DNA of 64,000 nucleotides, taken from Erodium maritimum. Its lineage: Eukaryota > Streptophyta > Magnoliopsida > Geraniales > Geraniaceae. The DNA lies in contig OY997596.1 in assembly GCA_963921825.1 (NCBI GenBank), positions 61,082,754 through 61,146,753 on the forward strand. Direction: 5' to 3'. Each line of letters begins with the position of its first letter. Positions within the stretch are counted from its first letter, which is position 1. This document shows, one piece after another, positions 1 to 62,712 of the stretch. The notes beneath the pieces were generated by a model. The model ran no database searches. It saw nothing but the letters and a program-made list of their open reading frames with translations, and was not told where the DNA came from. A program made the translations under genes and the position numbers.

Positions 1-1309
1 CTGAGCTCTCGATAGCTCAATGTCTTCTTTCCTATTGTGCAGTTGAGCTTCAACAATCCAATAACTAGGTTGGGTTTTAATTGAAAATTTAAGGGTGTTT
101 GTCAAAAGTTGAGCTTGGATTTCGATTTCAGAATCCTTAGGAAATTGGGAATTTGGATTGATTGGAGCTTGTACTGTTAATGATTCATGGAACTTTTCTG
201 GGTTCAGAGCTCTCGCTAGCTCAATGTCTTCACTTTCCTATTGTGCAATTGAGCTTGAACAAGCCAATAACTAGGTTGGGATTTCATTGAATATAGGGAT
301 AATTGCAAAAACTTTCTGTGAACTATGCGCGTTTTGCAAATACTACGGGTGAACTATCTTTTTTTGCAAATGACATCCCTAACTATTTTCCATATGCAAA
401 TTCGCTAATGGGGTTAAAAAAAAATTGTGCAAAAAGTTGGAAGTCACCATGCAAAGGTGTATACATAAGGGTTCCAAATTGCAGAACATGTATAATGTAA
501 AGGGCAAAACTGTCATTTCCAAAAAATGAAGTCACGTGACTGTCACATGACTAATTTCCATTAAAGATAATGAATTTTCTGACGGAAAATATTTAGGGAA
601 TGTCATTTGCAAAAAAAAAAGAGAGTTCATTGATAGTATTTGCAAAACGCTCATAATTCATCGCAAGTTTTTACAATTATCCCTTGAAAATATAAGGATG
701 CTGGTCAAAAGTTGAGCTTGGACTGTCCTGAATCAGTTCTGGTTATTTATTGGGTCTTTACCCGGCGTTTGGTCTATCTTTCATATGGGTCTCAACAAAA
801 AATATGAAATTTGCACTATTTTGTGTTTCTTTATGTTATAATGTATGTCAACTGTCAAGTACCACGTTTCATTTGCTGTGATTTAATGTCATGTTTTTCT
901 TTGTTAAAGCTATCAATTTCATGGTTTTGTGGAATTTTTTGCATAGGCAAGCACGAAACTAAGTGGGTTTTCATGGAAATGTAAAGGGTATCGGGTAAGC
1001 TAAGAAAACTTGACCTTGGATTGTCTTTCACAAGCTCTCCTGGTTGGCCTTTACTCAGTGTTTAATCTCTTCTTCGTTAGCGTCTCCATCTGAAAATATT
1101 AAATTGCACCTTTTTGTTCATTCTACCTGGTTTTCTTGTTGTTATATATGTCAAGTCTGCATTGTTAGGAAATGTGTGTATCAATGATCTTATTTTGACA
1201 AGTCTGCATTGTTAGGAAATCTGTGTATGATTGTATCAATGTCCTACACTTTTTCTCATGGATGTTTTCGAATTCGCGATTCAGGTTGAAACAACTCTCA
1301 TCGGTCCAG
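1..1309 (+). other. Upstream and probable 5' UTR/intron region of the THO7 gene, with diverged tandem copies
   Basis: No coding exon is visible. A segment starting with the motif GAGCTCTCG-TAGCTCAATGTC occurs at about 3 and again at about 207. The phrase GTCAAAAGTTGAGCTTGGA follows each copy (about 101 and 703). A looser third copy runs from about 960 to 1180. So this region grew by tandem duplication, and MITE-A later landed in the second copy. The sequence ATTCAG at about 1279-1284, just before the start codon, is a plausible acceptor of a 5' UTR intron. Confidence 0.5.
296..683 (-). mobile_element. MITE-A copy 1 (Mutator-type non-autonomous element)
   Basis: Palindromic element with ends GGGATAATTGC / GCAAGTTTTTACAATTATCCC. 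It is flanked by TTGAATATA (287-295) and TTGAAAATA (684-692), an 8/9 match to a 9-bp target duplication. The interior, read by the GTATACATAAGGGTT motif, is in minus orientation. It lies upstream of the THO7 start codon. Confidence 0.8.
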
Positions 1310-2681: not shown

Positions 2682-3640
2682 GCAAACCTTTGTTGTATTT
2701 TTACCAGCAACCAATTGGATGCTCAAAATTACTGACTTGTACATGACTTAAACTGGTTCTTATGTTGATTTCACAAGGGGATGATTGCAAAAAAGTACCC
2801 TAAGTTATTCACTTTTTGCAGGTTGTAGTTTTCTTTGATGATTGCAAAAAAATGCATTGATCTTGTCTTTTTGTTGCAAGTTGTGTAAATTTGTTTCGAA
2901 GTGACGATTTTGCAATGACGTAATCGTGTTTGTGACGAATTCGATCTCGGTTTCGATCCTTACCCGACCGCCGAATTGCTAATTTGCGTTTGAAACGAGC
3001 TGATCACGTGTTTGTAGATAATCGCTGTTCTTCTATTCTGTCTATGGATGATCACGTGTCAGCAACGAGTAAAACTTGATGCTTAAAGGGAAAATCATGA
3101 ATTTAGGTTTTAATAGTAAGAGTTTGTGCCGTTGAAACGTTCTTCATTTTTTTTTGTAGTCTTCGACATATAATATATTCCTCTTGGGTGAATACGCAAT
3201 AACCCGACTAATCGTCAAATGCGTTATGAGGACTAACCGGCGTCCTGGCTCGGCGATTCAGGTGAATGCGGGACAACGCGACTAATCGTCAAATGCATTG
3301 TGAGAGGCTCGACAATTTGAAGGCTAGCTTGTTGGTGCTGACTGTTCGATTAAAAATATAATAGTTCATCCCTCTCTCAACCAACACTTAGCATGAAAAG
3401 TCAACAACCTCCGATACTAGCATGTTGGTGCTGGCTGTTCGTGCCATTTTCTTCACGAACTTCCAATCGTCGGCGGTTCGTGCCGACAATGAGCTTACCA
3501 CCAGCCCTCACCGCCAGCAACAAAACGCCGACGTTTTCTCCCCGCCTAAGGACGAAAGCTGACTATACCACCAACATTGGAGATGCTCTAATAACGGGAC
3601 TAATCAGTGACCTGGCTCGACGATTCGGGTGAATGCACTC
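2682..3640. repeat. THO7-NOPCHAP1 intergenic: MITE-B fragment, duplicated blocks and a MITE-J piece
   Basis: About 2777-2925 is the left half of a MITE-B. The phrase GACTAATCGTCAAATGC occurs at about 3207 and 3279. GGCTCGGCGATTCAGGTGAATGC (3249) recurs in diverged form at 3613. GTTGGTGCTGRCTGTTCG occurs at 3332 and 3424. About 3430-3592 resembles the hairpin element at 28440-28720 (CCACCAGC-CT-ACCGCCAGCAAC, then an end reading GGAGATGCTCTA). No gene is seen. Confidence 0.5.
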
Positions 3641-6352: not shown

Positions 6353-7367
6353 AATGTGCTCAGTGAAGTCAGTAGTTTCGATGATCACATTTTGCTTCCA
6401 TAAATGAAAGAAATGTGCAGACTATATGTGATGAGAAGAAGTATGTATGCAAACTGTATTTTCTGCAACATGATCACATTGTCTTGTATACAAAGTTGTT
6501 TTTGTTGTGCCTAGTTGTGATTATGATTCTTAATTCCAAGTCATTTAGTTGAAGGGCCTACTGTGCAATTAATGACTACATATTCTGGTCTTAAAGTTAC
6601 AAATATTCTATTTTTGTTTCCAAGTGGTAAAACAATACCATAACTATTCACCTTTTTTTTGGAACGCTTCATGGCTGTAAAATTCGGGTGTTAGGACCTC
6701 TTATTTTTTCGGTTACTTGCTTCTGGGTCTGCGTACCCTTTCTTTTCTTTTGGGTCTGCGTACCCTTGCTTAGTCTCTGGGTCTGTGTGCCCTTACTTAG
6801 CCTTCGGGTCTGTGTACCCTTGCTTTACTTCTGGGTCTGCGTGCCCTCTCTTTCCTTCGGGGTTTGTGTACCCTTACTTTGCCTTTGGGTCTGCGTACCC
6901 TCTCTTGTCTGTGGTTGGTCTTCCCCGCTGGGGGACTGTTGGGTCGGTGTACCCTTTCTTTGACTCTGGATCTGTGTACCCATTTTTGGCTCCCGGGTCT
7001 GTGCACCCTTACTTTGGTCATTTGCAACCTTTAGGAAGTTCGCGTTTTTTGTGTAATCTTTTCTTGCTCAGAAGAGGTTAATTTAAATATGTTTTCGCCG
7101 ATAAAAAAATACAACTTCATATATCCTATAAACACACGTCCAACCAAAAAGACAAATTCACGATACTTTTTTATAACTATCAAAGAAAAGGATTACAAAT
7201 TACAAAAAATGAATACTTCAAGGTATTCTTTTGCAATTATCCCAACATATTTTTCTTACTGGACACTCTTATTGATTTTATTCCCAATGTCACATACTAT
7301 AACTTCAAATGTCCTATAAACACACACATTCCAACAAAATAAACATAACATAAACGATCATGCCTTC
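6353..7367. other. NOPCHAP1 / PR-1A intergenic
   Basis: Holds the 3' UTR of NOPCHAP1 (to about 6540), the minisatellite at 6718-7022, a retroposon-like tail at about 7030-7110 (GCCGATAAAAAAATAC), and the right half of a MITE-B at 7145-7244. No gene is seen. Confidence 0.5.
6718..7022 (+). repeat. Minisatellite, about ten ~30-bp units with core GGGTCTGCGTACCC
   Basis: Units are GGGTCTGYGTRCCCT followed by a 12-16 nt T/C-rich spacer, starting near 6725, 6752, 6779, 6808, 6832, 6859, 6886, 6942, 6967 and 6996. Both strands have long open frames through the array only because the unit is close to a multiple of three. I regard those frames as incidental. Confidence 0.8.
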
Positions 7368-8467: not shown

Positions 8468-10020
8468 GAGTTTCAATAGTTGTCTACTTGACATGAGTAT
8501 GAGTCTTGATTACTTGTAATCTATAAAAAAGGGTCATTTCAAGTGATACATTGAGTTATGTACACTTAACAAAATTGCTACTTGATGATCAAGTGACTAA
8601 AAAATTGTTTATTTAATTGATTAAATGTATGAACTTATATTTTTCGAAATGATTCTCCTTTTGTCAAAATATGTGATATAGTGATAACCGTAAAAAATAA
8701 CGATTAAAATGTCGAGAATTTGTCTTTTTATTGTATATTGTGTAAATTTATTTTAAAATAACGGTCTTCAGCTTTGTACCATACAAAGAGAAATGAAATT
8801 AAAGAGAATGGATATTCTGTTTTTCTTATTATTTTATATTTCAAATTTTAAGAATAATTTTTAATTTTTTGTATACAAACAGTAACAAAAAGATTAGTTC
8901 AAGACATTTTATTGCAATTATCATAGAAGGGGACTACAACTTTCAAAAACTCAATCCCTCGGGTACATTCCTGCAATTATACCTATTATATATCAATCGT
9001 GAAGGTATGTATGATAGAAATTCGATAAATTAATACTTGATTAATTAATAAACTGTTTAAGATAATAATTTTGCATGGTCCCGACTCGATAATATGGTGC
9101 TAAATTAATAAATTTTGATGATCCTATAACTATTAATTTATAGAGTTGACAAAAATAATATTACAAACTCCAAACTCGTTAGGTTATAATACTACAAACT
9201 TCAGCTTAACCAAAAGAATGACAACGTAACTAATATACTTATAAATAACACGGTTATTATCCCCGTCAATATCGAATCCCTGGTGGCCAAAAGGAAAATC
9301 ACACCCTCGATCGATCTACACCCAACAAAAAGAAAAATCTTAAATCTCGAAAAACAAAACAAAGTTATTTCAAAGAGAGAGATGTAAAACAATTGATTAA
9401 TATACACTTGACAATAATTAAAGTAAGTTTTATTTGAACATGACTTACGGAGTAGTTATAATTCACTTAACAGTGGTTGAAGCAAGTGCAATTAGAACAT
9501 GAATTACGGGTATAAGTCTATTTATCACTATCGATCTCACGAGTCACGTCTAATAAAAAAATTGAGCTATCTTTCAAATCAAGCATCACACTTTCTTCAT
9601 CAATAAATATATATATTAACTTTAACGGCTCGGTTTTCCAAAGTAGAAAGAAGAGCACCGTAAACCTTTGTGGATCGTCTCTATTACAACCAAAAATTCA
9701 ACCCAGAGGATCGAGACAGACCTCGGCCTAAATACATACTATCCTGAGCGTTTCAAACAAGGAACCTCAAATGAAAATTCGAAACAAGATAGTGTATGGA
9801 ATGTGACATTTTTTCGTCCAAAACCTAATAGAAAGATAGTGAAGTGAAGTGAATTTTTTGGAAAATTAACTTATCGCCCAACAAAAATAGAGAAAATCAA
9901 GGATTAATATAGGTAGATAAAAGGTCCTAACAATGACCTCGTGAGGAATTCAAAAGAATGAGGGGGTAGCAGAGCCGATTCTCTCTAAAACCCTAGGGTT
10001 TAGAGATTGACTTTTTACGA
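8468..10020. other. PR-1A upstream intergenic, AT-rich
   Basis: About 8695-8985 is a MITE-B (ends CCTGCAATTATACC, with the AACGGTC and AACAAAAAG family motifs). From 8986 to 10020 I see only AT-rich sequence. It includes two related copies of ACTTACGG / ATTACGG blocks at about 9440 and 9500. I see no gene or RNA. Confidence 0.4.
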
Positions 10021-44408: not shown

Positions 44409-46304
44409 CTAAAACTGTTCTATGCTCTTCATCACCTCAGCTTTGCAAGTTGTCTTGTAATGCCCAGTTTGGTTGCACCTGCTACAATGTACAGTGTGTT
44501 TCTCCCTGTTAACCTCTTCCACACATACCCTCTTCTTCTCGGGCCGTCCTGGTGGCCTGCGGCACTTCGGCGGCCACACGGTCTGACTCCCGTCGCCCAC
44601 GGTCTTCCTCCACTCGATTGCTCCGGTGACGGGGTGTATCCGCCCGGCGTATGCTTCCCGGTAACTCGCTGTCGTGAAGCATTTCTCGGCGAATGTGTAG
44701 ACGTCTTTCTGACAGGAGATCAGGGCCGCTGCAGCGTGAGAGCATGGTATTCCGTGATGCTGCCAATCCCGACAGGAGCAGGAACGGGCACCGATGTTCA
44801 CAATGTCGGACCTGTCAGCAAATAACAACTTAATCATAACCATTAAGTTGCAATTTTAACGCTGGGATTGAGTGTGGAACTTTAAAAGACTAAAATCCAA
44901 CAATCCAATAAACACAGAAGTTTTCAAACTATATACAGATCACACATTAAGCCATTCACATAAATACCTGTTAGCGGACAAAACCTCGAACTCCACTTCG
45001 TCTGACCGGAGGACTTGGTAACTGGAAGCACGACGGATGGATTCTACGATACGCGCCTCAGCAGAAGGGGCGAGTGTGGAAGACCAAGAACTACTCTTCA
45101 CACAACGTTCCTCAAACTCGATCATCAACAGGTTCAGAATCCGCTCAATGACCTGAACAACGGGTAGATCCAGAGCTTCATCGATCCATTTGTTGAGCTC
45201 CTCGATGTTTGAAGAAAGATGGCCATAGCACGTTCCTTCGAAGTGTACCAACGCCCAACAAGATGGTTGGAGCTCTCGTAACCACTCCGCGGCTCCGGGA
45301 GATAGCTCCTCGATTTCCCCCATTTTTTCTTTGAAACCAACGACGGTAGTGACATACGCGGCTTTCCAGATGAGATTCGCGAGTCTCGGGTTCTTGAACT
45401 CTTTCCCGACGGTTTCGCTCAAGTGGCGCACACAGAAGGCGTGAGCAGAACCAGGAAATCTCGTTTGAACTGCATCAACAATACCCTTTTGGACACCTGA
45501 CAAGAATGTGAACCTTGGCATTTCCTCAGTCACTGTCACAAGTGCCTTATGAATCTCCGATAAGAACCAATTCCAATTCTCATCACTTTCCATGTCCACA
45601 ACTGCAAATGCAAGCGGAAACAACCCGCCATTACCGTCAAAAGAACAAGCAGAGAGTAACGTCCCTAGGTACTTGCTCCTAAGCTGTGTCGTGCCCAGAC
45701 CAACGAGCGGCAAGCATCCACCGAGGAACCCGCAGACCGACATGTTAAACGAAACAAACAGACGATAGAACCGATTATCTGTTCCAACAGTATAAACCTC
45801 GGCAAAACTCCCAGGATTCGTTCTCTTTATTTCCTCGCAGAATGCGGGAAGCAAGCAATACCCTTCCTCAGAAGATCCATAAATCGTTGCCATACCACGT
45901 TCCTTCGCACGCCAAGCCTGCTTATACGGCACGGTGATGCCATACTGCTTCTGTATATCGTGCAATATATCCTTCGGTTTGTAATTCACATTACCGCGCA
46001 GCCTCTCCTCGATAAAGCTCACGATCCAATCCACAGAAGCCTGATGATGACCATTCTGCGCGTTCTTCCCACACGTGTGCACCGCTTCGAGGCTTCTCAC
46101 GGTGAAAGTCGGGGAGTGAGGGAGCTTCACTGCACGAATGCGCCACGGGCAATCCTCCGCCGCACATTTTGCAAAGTATCGGATAAGGTCACTCTTCACG
46201 ATGCGGAGCTCGAAGTGTTGTGCAATGGCTGCTTCTTTGATTGCATTTCGAAATGCCTTGACATCGAGAAACTCCTGACCGACCTCAAAAGCGTGATCCT
46301 CCAT
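44409..46304 (-). CDS. Domesticated Mutator-like transposase (MUSTANG-type, SWIM zinc finger), catalytic Asp lost
   Basis: Two exons: 44968-46304 and 44409-44811 (579 aa). The order is that of MULE-derived plant proteins. A MuDR-type zinc-binding N terminus has CAAEDCPWR (47-55) and HTC (76-78). The transposase core is about 160-400, with AFAVVDMESDENWNWFL and HAFCVRHL. A SWIM finger follows (C457, C459, C469, H471), then a terminal zinc knuckle (C555, C558, H563, C568). In active MULE transposases the first two acids of the DDE triad fall at D-x-T-x-L and S-D-x-Q/K-G. Here they read LVGLGTTQL (G204) and FLSGVQKG (G270). The frame is intact and spliced, and no terminal inverted repeats flank it. 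It is therefore a host gene, probably a DNA-binding regulator. The first non-coding exon is likely at 48365 and beyond, with a ~2-kb leader intron. Confidence 0.9.
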
Positions 46305-49118: not shown

Positions 49119-49170
49119 GTCCCACATCGGCTAAGTGAAGGAATTGCCGTGAAAGAGTTGTATATATAAA
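49119..49170 (+). promoter_or_regulatory. Plant snRNA promoter (USE and TATA) of the U4 gene
   Basis: USE GTCCCACATCG at 49119-49129 matches the plant consensus RTCCCACATCG. The TATA box is TATATATAAA at 49161-49170. The gap of about 31 bp (three helical turns) is the spacing of RNA polymerase II snRNA genes; Pol III genes have about one turn less. Confidence 0.92.
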
Positions 49171-49195: not shown

Positions 49196-49353
49196 ATCTT
49201 TGCGCTTGGGGCAATGACGCAGCTAGTGAGGTACTAACCGAGGCGCGTCTATTGCTGGTTGAAAACTATTTCCAAACCCCCTCTTGGGCCTTGGGCTTGC
49301 CCGTTGGGCCCTCGAGAATTTTTGGAAGGGCTTGCCTTTGGGCTTGAGCCCTA
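49196..49353 (+). ncRNA. U4: U4 spliceosomal snRNA
   Basis: Begins ATCTTTGCGCTTGGGGCA 30 or so bases after the TATA box. The U6-pairing stem II strand is followed by the 5' stem-loop (kink-turn arms around GAGG and CCGAGG). Then come CTATTGCTGGTTGAAAAC (the stem I region) and the central CCAAACCCCCTCTTGGGCC domain. The Sm site AATTTTTGG is at 49317-49325, and a 3' hairpin AGGGCT...AGCCCT ends near 49352. All parts needed for U4/U6 pairing and Sm assembly are present. The 5' loop reads AGTGAGGTACTAACC, which may differ from common plant copies at one or two loop positions. The 3' end is set by the hairpin and is uncertain by a few bases. Gene looks functional. Confidence 0.95.
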
Positions 49354-49369
49354 CAATTTTAGAGTTTAA
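49354..49369 (+). terminator. snRNA 3' box
   Basis: CAATTTTAGAGTTTAA fits the plant snRNA 3'-end signal CA(N)3-10AGTNNAA, directly after the terminal hairpin of U4. Confidence 0.75.
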
Positions 49370-49752
49370 ACTTTATCTCTGTACCTTGGTGAGTTTAAAA
49401 GCCCGATTAGATTTCTATGCCCAGTTTAGCCCATTCATGAAATTCTCTCCAGCTGGAAAGTTCTGTTGGTTGTGGGACCCATGTTAGACCATCCCCAAAA
49501 AGTTTTGTTGACGGTTCGATTTCACTTTTCCCTCTCTTTGTGATTCGACGTTGTTCGAGTTTATAAAATTCATCGGCGTCGATTATGCGATCATTCTTAC
49601 TCTCCTTCTCTCTATCTCTCTCCTCCCTCAACCACTCTTCGTCTAACACACATTTAATTTGGTCTGATTCGACTCGACGAACCCGACTTCTATTATAGAA
49701 ACTACCGATCCCGACTTTGATTTAACCTAAGGTTCAACAGACTCCACCAACC

Positions 49753-50343
49753 CCAGTGTAGATGGTCTCAGTAATTGGGGTAGATAGATCTGTCGATAAT
49801 TCACCTGCATGCTCATGATACCAAACTCAATTTAATACATGGATACTAACCAACCATACTACAAAACTCAAATCGATATTTTTATAACTAAAAATCGAGT
49901 GTAATACTTTTATAATGTAACCAAGTGTTTAGGGTCACGGGAATTAGATCTGATCCCTGCTTGACAGATGGAAATTTTCTCAAACGGATACCCGCCCATG
50001 AACACAAATATGAAGGGAATAATTAGCATATCAAAACACAAGCAAACTTACTGAGACCATCTACACTGGAGTTGCTTGTGTTTTGATATGCTAATTATTC
50101 CCTTCATATTTGTGTTCATGGGCGGGTATCCGTTTGAGAAAATTTCCATCTGTCAAGCAGGGATCAGATCTAATTCCCGTGACCCTAAACACTTGGTTAC
50201 ATTATAAAAGTATTACACTCGATTTTTAGTTATAAAAATATCGATTTGAGTTTTGTAGTATGGTTGGTTAGTATCCATGTATTAAATTGAGTTTGGTATC
50301 ATGAGCATGCAGGTGAATTATCGACAGATCTATCTACCCCAAT
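49753..50343. repeat. Perfect 272-bp inverted repeat with 26-bp spacer
   Basis: Arms 49774-50045 and 50072-50343 are exact reverse complements over all 272 bases I compared. The 26-bp spacer contains a 21-mer (50049-50069) that is the exact reverse complement of the 21 bases preceding the left arm (49753-49773). No such 21-mer follows the right arm. I see no coding potential in the arms. Confidence 0.95.
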
Positions 50344-51279
50344 CCGCCATTCCCCACATTGTTGGGGATCAATAAAATTCAACCCATTATATATCCACTC
50401 ATATGCAAATGGATAGCTGGTCGGGCACAATCCCGCACATTGTTTCAGATCAATAAAATTCAATCAACTATTTATCGAATCATATGCAAATGGATAGCTA
50501 ACAGGACGAATAAACATGCATAGTGGATCACCGAACGTTTTTTTAACATTCCTACTTCGTAATGTTGGTTTCTTTTTTTCTTATGATTAAAAGTAACGAT
50601 GGTTTCAGAGTATTTGATCCAAGTTCATTAAAATATAAATTTAGTATTCATAATATTTGTTTCCTAAAATCGAATATACCATACTTTTCAATTCACATTA
50701 TATTTTGTTCAAATATTTTTTTCCAAAAAATATTATTATTTATTTTTTACAATTTTCATTATTTCGTAATCATTTTGTGCACATATTTTGTAATATGGAA
50801 CCATCAAATATATGCTAATTCTACCCATTATTTTGCAAAACTGTATAATTTATCTGTTTTATCATTATTTCTATTAAAAATGATTTTATATATTATCAAA
50901 AAAATGATTTTATATATATATATTTTTTTGAGTGGTCATTTTATATATTCTGATTACTATATAAAAAAGTAATATGACCTCACGAGGTAAACGCCTCGTT
51001 AGGATCACGCCACCTGTCAGTGGGCCACAGAGCTCAGTGGTCCCCACACAAATGCTTTTCAAATGACCGTTACACCCCTGTAGAAATCAGTTTCTTACCT
51101 TCCTGTCCGAATCCATCATCTCTTCTCTCTAACGGCTATTTTCATCGATCCGAGCATTTAAACTCTCTATCTGAACCAATAAGCCACCACTCTCCACCGC
51201 TCCACCGTCGATCAATCACCAGAACCTCTCTCTCTCTCACACACATCACACGCTCCTCTCGAGTCCTTCTCTACAAAAA
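50344..51279 (+). other. Intergenic and 5' leader of the TPX2-like gene
   Basis: A two-copy ~80-bp tandem repeat lies at 50354-50433 and 50434-50512 (CACATTGTT--GGATCAATAAAATTCAA, ATATGCAAATGGATAGCT). 50540-50990 is very AT-rich. From about 51080 the sequence is pyrimidine-rich (CTCTCTCTCTCTCACACAC), as in plant leaders, up to the ATG at 51280. Confidence 0.5.
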
Positions 51280-61225: not shown

Positions 61226-62712
61226 TACGAGGTTTTGTCTGTGTTTTTTTCTTTCTTTTTACATCTCTGTGATGTTTTTAGGGCGTATAGGTAATAAGAA
61301 CAACGCTGGTTTGTATTTTGGATGTAAGGGAGCAGAGAGATCTAACTCTTGTCGGATCGGTTGGAGTATGGTTTGTAACGTCTATCCATTTGGAAAAGTG
61401 CACAGCCTCTTTAAGCTATGTTAGAGAATGGAAATGTGTTAATGGATGTAGATTATTTATCGTGTCTTTGTATTCTTATAATTATCGGTTGTCGATTGTT
61501 CGATTCTAGTCTGTTTGATGACGATATGAACGAGGTGAACTGATTCAAAATTGGTCGGGTTTCGCTTGGAAAAAAAAATGCCCGGTTCAAGCTCAATTGA
61601 GCTTTAAACGCAACGAATTTGACTCTAGTCGATTTAATTTGTATTTATTAAAAACATATGCTCTCAAGTTCTAGAGGTTCGATTTGAGCCCGGCTTGTTT
61701 ATTTCTAACCTTGAGCTGACAAATTCGAATCAAATACTTAGAGCATCTCTAACACTAGGGGATTAGCCCCAGTTCTTCCCCCCTTCAACAATGCTGGTAG
61801 CCAACTAGCCAGAAGAATCCAGACTAATAGCCACGTGTCACGAGAGGGCGATCAATACTTCGCCCAGGGGAGAGAACCGTCCAAACCTGTCGAAAACTAA
61901 CTTTTTCAGCGATTCACCCGTTGTATTCACCCCCGATTCGCCCTTGGATGTGGATCCCCTTAGCGAATCAAGCTCAAAAAGCTCGTCTACAACACTAAAT
62001 GTTAGGATAGGCCTAGTGTCGAGTCGATACTCTTTCAAATGAGATCCAATTTCCAAATCCTAATGAGTCAAATGCTTGGAAGCAGGTATTGCTGATATAT
62101 ATATATAGGGTAGCTATCCAGTAAAAACCACCCTTATTGTGCAAACTACGAACTCACCAGGTGCTGACACGTGGCGCGCATAGTGCTGATAGTTTGGGAC
62201 TATTAGCACTGTGCGCCCAAACTATTAGCACTCTGCGCGCCACGTGTCAGCGCCTGGTGAGTTCGTAGTTTGCACAATAAGGTGCGGTGTTTTATATATA
62301 TATTGTCCACGTGTCAGCATCTGATGCGCTCTGCTGACATCACTTTGGGGGATCCTATGGCTCTCATGGGTTCGTAGTTTGCACAATAAGGTGGGGTTTG
62401 TACCTGATACCAATCCTATATATATATATATATATAAATAACCTTGAATACAAAAATTGAAGAAAACATACCTTGAATATTATTTTCAAATAAAATGGTT
62501 ACTTGATGGTTCCTAAACATTCCCATATTTTCAACCAAATGCATCTCATCTCAGTTGCTTTATAATTTCAAAACAATCAACACAAGAAAATGCATTTTGA
62601 AGATGACAAGCCAGCTTCCCCAAATATATGAGAACATTAGAAAGTCAAAGTATGTATGAACTTGGAAAAAACTACCAATGCCCGATAATATAATCCTTAA
62701 ACGATTAGGAAT
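61226..62712. other. Convergent intergenic with a foldback element
   Basis: The SKIP35 3' UTR runs to about 61500. From 61740 (GAGCATCTCTAACACTAGGGG) starts a MITE-like sequence. 62139-62284 is a foldback: ATTGTGCAAACTACGAACTCACCAGG pairs with its reverse complement at 62258-62283. A third copy of GGTTCGTAGTTTGCACAATAAGGTGG is at 62369-62394. No gene is seen. Confidence 0.55.

Follow-up and report, generated by a model that had tools for sequence, protein, structure and literature searches.

Features of the locus

The inverted repeat described here lies in the window, the whole 64,000-nt stretch of Erodium maritimum DNA that was analysed (contig C9:61082754-61146753; the genome totals 763 Mb in 40 contigs). 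The repeat and its neighbours, in window coordinates, are as follows.

49196-49350, plus strand: U4 spliceosomal RNA gene, a neighbour outside the repeat (Rfam RF00015, 106.2 bits against a gathering score of 46).
49430-49767, plus strand: MITE-A copy (F-T), a dispersed element of ~320 bp with the ends GACCA...TGGTC, defined from genome copies and alignment.
49751-49774, plus strand: T, the spacer source, which is the right end of MITE-A plus 7 local flank bases; switch points 3 (49751) and 1 (49774) of the model proposed below.
49774-50045, minus strand: left arm, the derived copy; ~49774-50010 mirrors MITE-B and the remainder mirrors the MITE-B flank.
50046-50071, minus strand: spacer T', the reverse complement of T plus 2 bases (GT) that are absent from the direct strand.
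49775-50071, minus strand: inserted inverted copy of 297 nt, made up of the left arm and spacer T'; four-point rebuild with 1 mismatch.
50072-50343, plus strand: right arm M, where it originally stood; MITE-B does not include its first ~35 bases, and MITE-B similarity continues beyond 50343.
50107-50554, plus strand: MITE-B copy, called hAT-like, with its outermost bases placed by eye; it carries a tandem duplication of ~81 bp.

The U4 gene is apparently intact and adjoins both MITEs. It is followed at 49354-49369 by CAATTTTAGAGTTTAA, a 3'-box-like element. Given this end, transcription of U4, from the nearest promoter seen, would be expected to stop before the repeat, the left arm of which starts 424 bp beyond the U4 3' end. 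The promoter comprises a plant USE at 49119-49129, matching the consensus RTCCCACATCG given in PMC9845283, and a TATA element at 49161.

Further away in the window, a MULE transposase-like gene occupies two ORFs on the minus strand (44409-46304), with a MuDR DNA-binding domain, a MULE domain and a SWIM zinc finger, and could be a domesticated MULE. An ORF at 52.7-54.0 kb matched no Pfam family, and a tandem array of ~27-bp, GGGTCTGCGTACCCTT-like units lies at 6690-7014.

A perfect inverted repeat whose spacer matches its own flank

As the original prediction had it, the two arms (49774-50045 and 50072-50343) pair perfectly, with 272 of 272 bases complementary, and enclose a spacer of 26 nt (50046-50071). 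A 21-mer in this spacer had also been described as the exact reverse complement of the left flank; the match is there but its length is 22 bases (49753-49774), the final base belonging to the left arm as well. The 22-mer from T occurs at two places in the window, at 49753 on the plus strand and at 50048 on the minus strand, and by formula a match of 22 bases would arise by chance in the 100 adjoining bases with a probability of ~2e-11. Under the switch model, the spacer and 49751-49774 agree at 23 of 24 bases. The layout T-arm-T'-arm' had been read correctly, whereas its description as an inverted dimer lacking the last T gives way to a simpler one, in which the reverse complement of T+M is inserted between T and M and nothing is missing.

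The window holds 44 inverted pairs, and the statement that all other palindromes in it have decayed is a fair one: among the 25 longest pairs, all except this repeat (24 pairs) are 71-96% complementary. A sample of 282,627 bases in 27 sequences was scanned for inverted repeats whose arms measure at least 50 bp, with a spacer of at most 1500 bp and an exact 16-base seed. It comprised the window, 20 pieces of 10 kb taken from two contigs, and 6 MITE-B loci; L001 and L002, which are copies of the window, were left out. This sample amounts to ~0.04% of the genome and gives no precise rates; of the 17 inverted repeats in it, one is 100% identical, and that is the repeat at 49774-50343. Spacers were then compared with flanking sequence at 31 flanks (34 minus 3 that were short of letters), each against 200 shuffles. 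Only at the 49774-50343 repeat did none of the 200 shuffles do as well. The runner-up, L016, has a 10-point match and a 145-nt spacer; 1 of its 200 shuffles did as well, and we take its match as chance among 31 tests.

Other inverted structures were noted in the same sequences. On contig C2, L022 holds a near-perfect palindrome at 3327-3449 (a 61-bp, 98% inverted repeat with a spacer of 1 base), and L021 holds a 332-bp inverted repeat of 94% at 8725-9427, with a 39-base spacer that has no match to its own flanks. The window itself contains a MITE-like element at 62124-62399, with a 67-bp inverted pair of 96% (62132-62198/62216-62282), a central direct repeat of 22 bases (86%) and, at 62367-62399, another inverted end; this may record an earlier event of similar kind within a MITE.

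Relatives of MITE-B identify the right arm as the original

A genome search with positions 49753-50024 returned 45 matched pieces, in which both arms matched at 100% and the other 43 pieces, of 67-86% identity, were spread over a minimum of 39 further places, with 40 of 102 candidates scored. Six of these 39 places (L003-L008) formed the comparison set. They are mutually alike over about 400-560 bp and have the form TAGGGGTG...CACCCCTA. By eye, an exact 8-mer stands at both ends of two copies, a 7/8 match in one and a 6/8 match in one, while two copies, and the window copy too, are ambiguous. From these ends and 8-mers, as read by eye, MITE-B is provisionally called a hAT-like MITE, with no transposase linked to it. 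Its relatives, like those of MITE-A, are dispersed copies and not orthologues.

In all six relatives, BLAST similarity to MITE-B extends unbroken for 49-74 bp beyond 50343, the end of the right arm, and two of the six show an additional piece that reaches 50555-50558. Leftward, the similarity ends within 49773-49779, again in 6/6 relatives. Because MITE-B similarity continues past the right arm only, the right arm is the original and the left arm the copy; the reverse assignment, with the left arm as the original, is rejected on the same ground.

The start of MITE-B was placed by eye at ~50107 and then tested by pairwise alignment. Five of the six relatives back a start at ~50112-50114 (earlier in L005, at 50088), where 0-4 of 200 shuffles scored equally well; L008 disagrees. 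A start at ~50107 leaves ~35 bases at the beginning of the right arm as MITE-B flank. The inner 123 arm bases (query 49923-50045) matched only the two arms among the matches listed in the genome. The window copy of MITE-B also carries the tandem duplication of ~81 bp (1.9 copies, 50351-50499), which is missing from the six aligned relatives.

Relatives of MITE-A and the age of the event

The left end of the window MITE-A is eroded and its position approximate, with BLAST similarity beginning at 49497. A search with 49674-49775 found 18 places, the locus itself and 17 others at 74-85%. Seven of the 17 (L030-L036) align as an element of ~320 bp with the ends GACCA...TGGTC; by eye, these seven mostly adjoin TAA. 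MITE-A may be PIF/Harbinger-like or Tc1/mariner-like, and we prefer neither assignment. Because spacer T' includes local flank bases, it was copied from the local site and not from another MITE-A.

The sole mismatch between T and T' is CCCC in T against CTCC in T' (as reverse complement). At this column, 7/7 aligned MITE-A relatives have the base of the spacer, T, and it is therefore T' that keeps the older state, the flank having mutated after the event. Alternatively, a chance copying error may have restored the family base, a single base being at stake. The mismatch suits an event that took place some time ago and argues against an artefact. At assumed substitution rates of 3e-9 to 1.3e-8 per site per year, 1 difference in 297 bases gives an age of ~0.13-0.56 million years, with limits of ~3 thousand to ~3 million years. 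The repeat had been thought either young or maintained; youth is supported, and maintenance is unnecessary, since the lone T/T' difference fits a simple recent origin.

A template switch as the probable origin

We consider that a single template-switch mutation, with four points in the order 3-1-4-2, probably built the present arrangement T-M'-T'-M. Replication template switching was among the explanations first offered for the repeat, and it is well supported by the junctions, by the rebuild and by the polarity taken from relatives. We infer an ancestor of the form F-T-GT-M-G, with a predicted T/M joint of ...CAGTAAGTTTGCTTG..., and a replication fork as the setting of the event. The growing strand would have copied MITE-A slightly beyond its end, through T to 49774, and would have left its template there with 1 bp of microhomology. 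It would then have moved, 273 bp ahead, onto the opposite strand of a second, intact copy of the locus and copied 297 bases backwards: M except for its final base, then the T/M joint, then T as far back as 49751. A return to the original template through 3 bp of microhomology (TTG), 2 bases beyond the point of departure, would complete the event. The hairpin would be a by-product, and is taken as unselected.

Rebuilding the present sequence from these four points gives the correct length with 1 mismatch, and the present sequence has the form descendant = anc[..1]+RC(anc[3..2])+anc[4..], with the ancestor inferred from the descendant. As the ancestor was derived from the present sequence, this fit is partly built in, and the GT at the joint is known from the spacer alone. 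Independent support comes from the arm and spacer, which as one piece match, in the natural order, M and 23/24 bases of T, and from the relatives, which give the direction of the event at MITE-B (6/6) and at the MITE-A base (7/7 aligned).

Junction 1 has 1 bp of microhomology, which is no better than chance, and junction 2 has 3 bp (TTG). The two bases GT are gone from the direct strand and retained in the inverted copy. Because this copy crosses the joint and keeps the lost GT, its template was an unbroken second copy, either the other fork strand or a sister chromatid. With the order 3-1-4-2, the template also has to be inter-strand or a sister: point 2 is ahead of point 1, which in the framework presented in PMC7954356 excludes switching within one nascent strand. 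The inner half of the arm has no listed place in the genome besides the two arms, and F has no other perfect place among the matches listed; the origin is therefore local.

Other routes to the same structure

A double-strand break at the T/M joint, repaired with a templated inverted filler, is the strongest alternative, and we regard it as possible though rather unlikely. One end would have copied 297 bases inversely from the sister chromatid and would have been joined by short microhomology, through alternative end joining or SDSA. From the sequence, repair of a break and switching at a fork are not separable. Just 2 bp were lost at the joint, and microhomologies of 1-3 bp suit end joining; the joint is only 7 bp from the MITE-A end, but it does not fall exactly at that end. 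Templated inverted insertions are acquired at the yeast breaks described in PMC11724301, and fillers of 1-123 bp at the rice transposon excisions described in PMC4423477, but an insert of 297 bases exceeds these ranges too, the yeast insertions reported there being mostly ~5-34 bp. Moreover, the copy crosses the joint, so the broken molecule itself was not the template. Length bears on both routes: the great-ape set, as presented in PMC7954356, is without template switches this long, and 297 nt lies outside the published template-switch range, which is a range and not a definition. We take this as a difference of size and not of kind, one that slightly favours an origin by break repair.

It is very unlikely that the repeat is an artefact of assembly, library or hairpin adapter. 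Its structure is known from one assembly, but the spacer has the base of 7/7 aligned MITE-A relatives where the flank has a private one, and an artefact would copy the present flank. In addition, a 297-base inverted piece that returns within 2 bp is unlike a read folded to its end.

More improbable still is snap-back synthesis of one nascent strand, or the trimmed remnant of a small inverted triplication. Snap-back yields inverted arms with a short spacer, but that spacer is the original loop and would not repeat a far flank, and with point 2 ahead of point 1 the required nascent strand would not yet have been made. Snap-back is rejected, as the spacer copies the outer flank and crosses the joint. 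Small inverted triplications have spacers of ~30 bp in the cases described in PMC13334657, but no segment was found here in three copies, and a trimmed triplication would require two independent deletions ending at one joint. ODIRA, which in the description of PMC10766186 begins from inverted triplications, was set aside.

Scarcely credible is the aberrant MITE dimer of the original prediction, or a transposable unit T-arm-T' inserted at the locus: each arm does contain roughly half of a MITE-B, and T is the end of a MITE-A, but these are two different MITEs, the arm ends fall within MITE-B and ~35 bp before its start so that neither is a MITE-B end, no target-site duplication is seen by eye around the insert, and the genome searches with the arm and with the left flank gave no second perfect arm or left flank among the matches listed.

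Comparison with known systems

The template switch that we favour is a known kind of mutation, of which the repeat at 49774-50343 is a clear, sizeable and recent example. With the short-range four-point switches described in PMC7954356 and PMC8794818 it shares one local reverse-complement copy, four points, a return near the point of departure, and a perfect inverted repeat made in a single step. It differs from them in order, being 3-1-4-2 with a source that overlaps both sides of the insertion point, whereas the majority patterns published are 1-4-3-2 and 3-2-1-4. It also differs in the length of the copy, 297 nt against a maximum of 128 (median 12) in the great-ape set of PMC7954356 and a largest case of 59 bp in the rRNA set of PMC8794818, which itself failed quality control there.

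The small inverted triplications presented in PMC13334657 resemble the repeat in size class, in a spacer of ~30 bp, in short junction homology and in a hairpin product; here, in contrast, nothing was found thrice, and the source and order of the switch points differ. Two direct copies around an inverted one (DUP/IN/DUP) were not seen: the T 22-mer occurs once direct and once inverted in the window, as do the arms among the matches listed in the genome search. Break insertions (PMC11724301) and rice fillers (PMC4423477) are likewise copied inserts at a joint, and the yeast ones, as reported, are local, inverted and joined by microhomology. They are, however, shorter (mostly ~5-34 bp and 1-123 bp, respectively, against 297), and here the template crosses the joint.

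The hairpin as a possible source of small RNAs

The locus folds as RNA at -495.1 kcal/mol, compared with a mean of -127.9 for shuffled sequences, none of which (0/100) was as stable. Any transcript would form a long perfect hairpin, a Dicer substrate in plants, and could feed siRNA production as originally predicted. One 24-mer from the arm, searched in the genome, was located three times, once in each arm and once in a MITE-B copy on contig C1; because it matches this further MITE-B copy perfectly, targets in trans exist and action in trans is possible. An Rfam search of 49400-50700 gave 8 matches, 7 of them in the hairpin and all below the gathering score. MIR2871 (41.9 bits, gathering 99) and MIR1222 (36.6 bits, gathering 90) were far under the cut-off and are taken as effects of the perfect hairpin.

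Inverted duplications and MITEs have been proposed as starting points of plant miRNA genes, as outlined in PMC3237417. The repeat resembles the starting points outlined there in being an inverted duplication that bears a MITE and forms a potential hairpin precursor; unlike the miRNA genes themselves, its hairpin is known from sequence and belongs to no Rfam family at the gathering score. A limited literature search on long-hairpin MITE siRNAs in plants, and on template switching as a source of new miRNAs, returned nothing on topic, from which absence is not implied.

We see a slim chance that this is a putative founder small-RNA locus, in which one inter-strand switch, over twice the length of the longest great-ape case, made a perfect hairpin of 272 bp out of half a hAT-like MITE, and this hairpin could immediately be diced into siRNAs against its own MITE family. 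Otherwise, the locus is a recent structural mutation of an ordinary sort, lying between genes. The one-step origin of a long perfect hairpin is seldom legible; here, thanks to the repeat families on its two sides, a single assembly shows both junctions of the event, its direction and what kind of template was used. The locus also suggests a survey for inverted repeats in which the spacer reads as the reverse complement of an adjoining flank.
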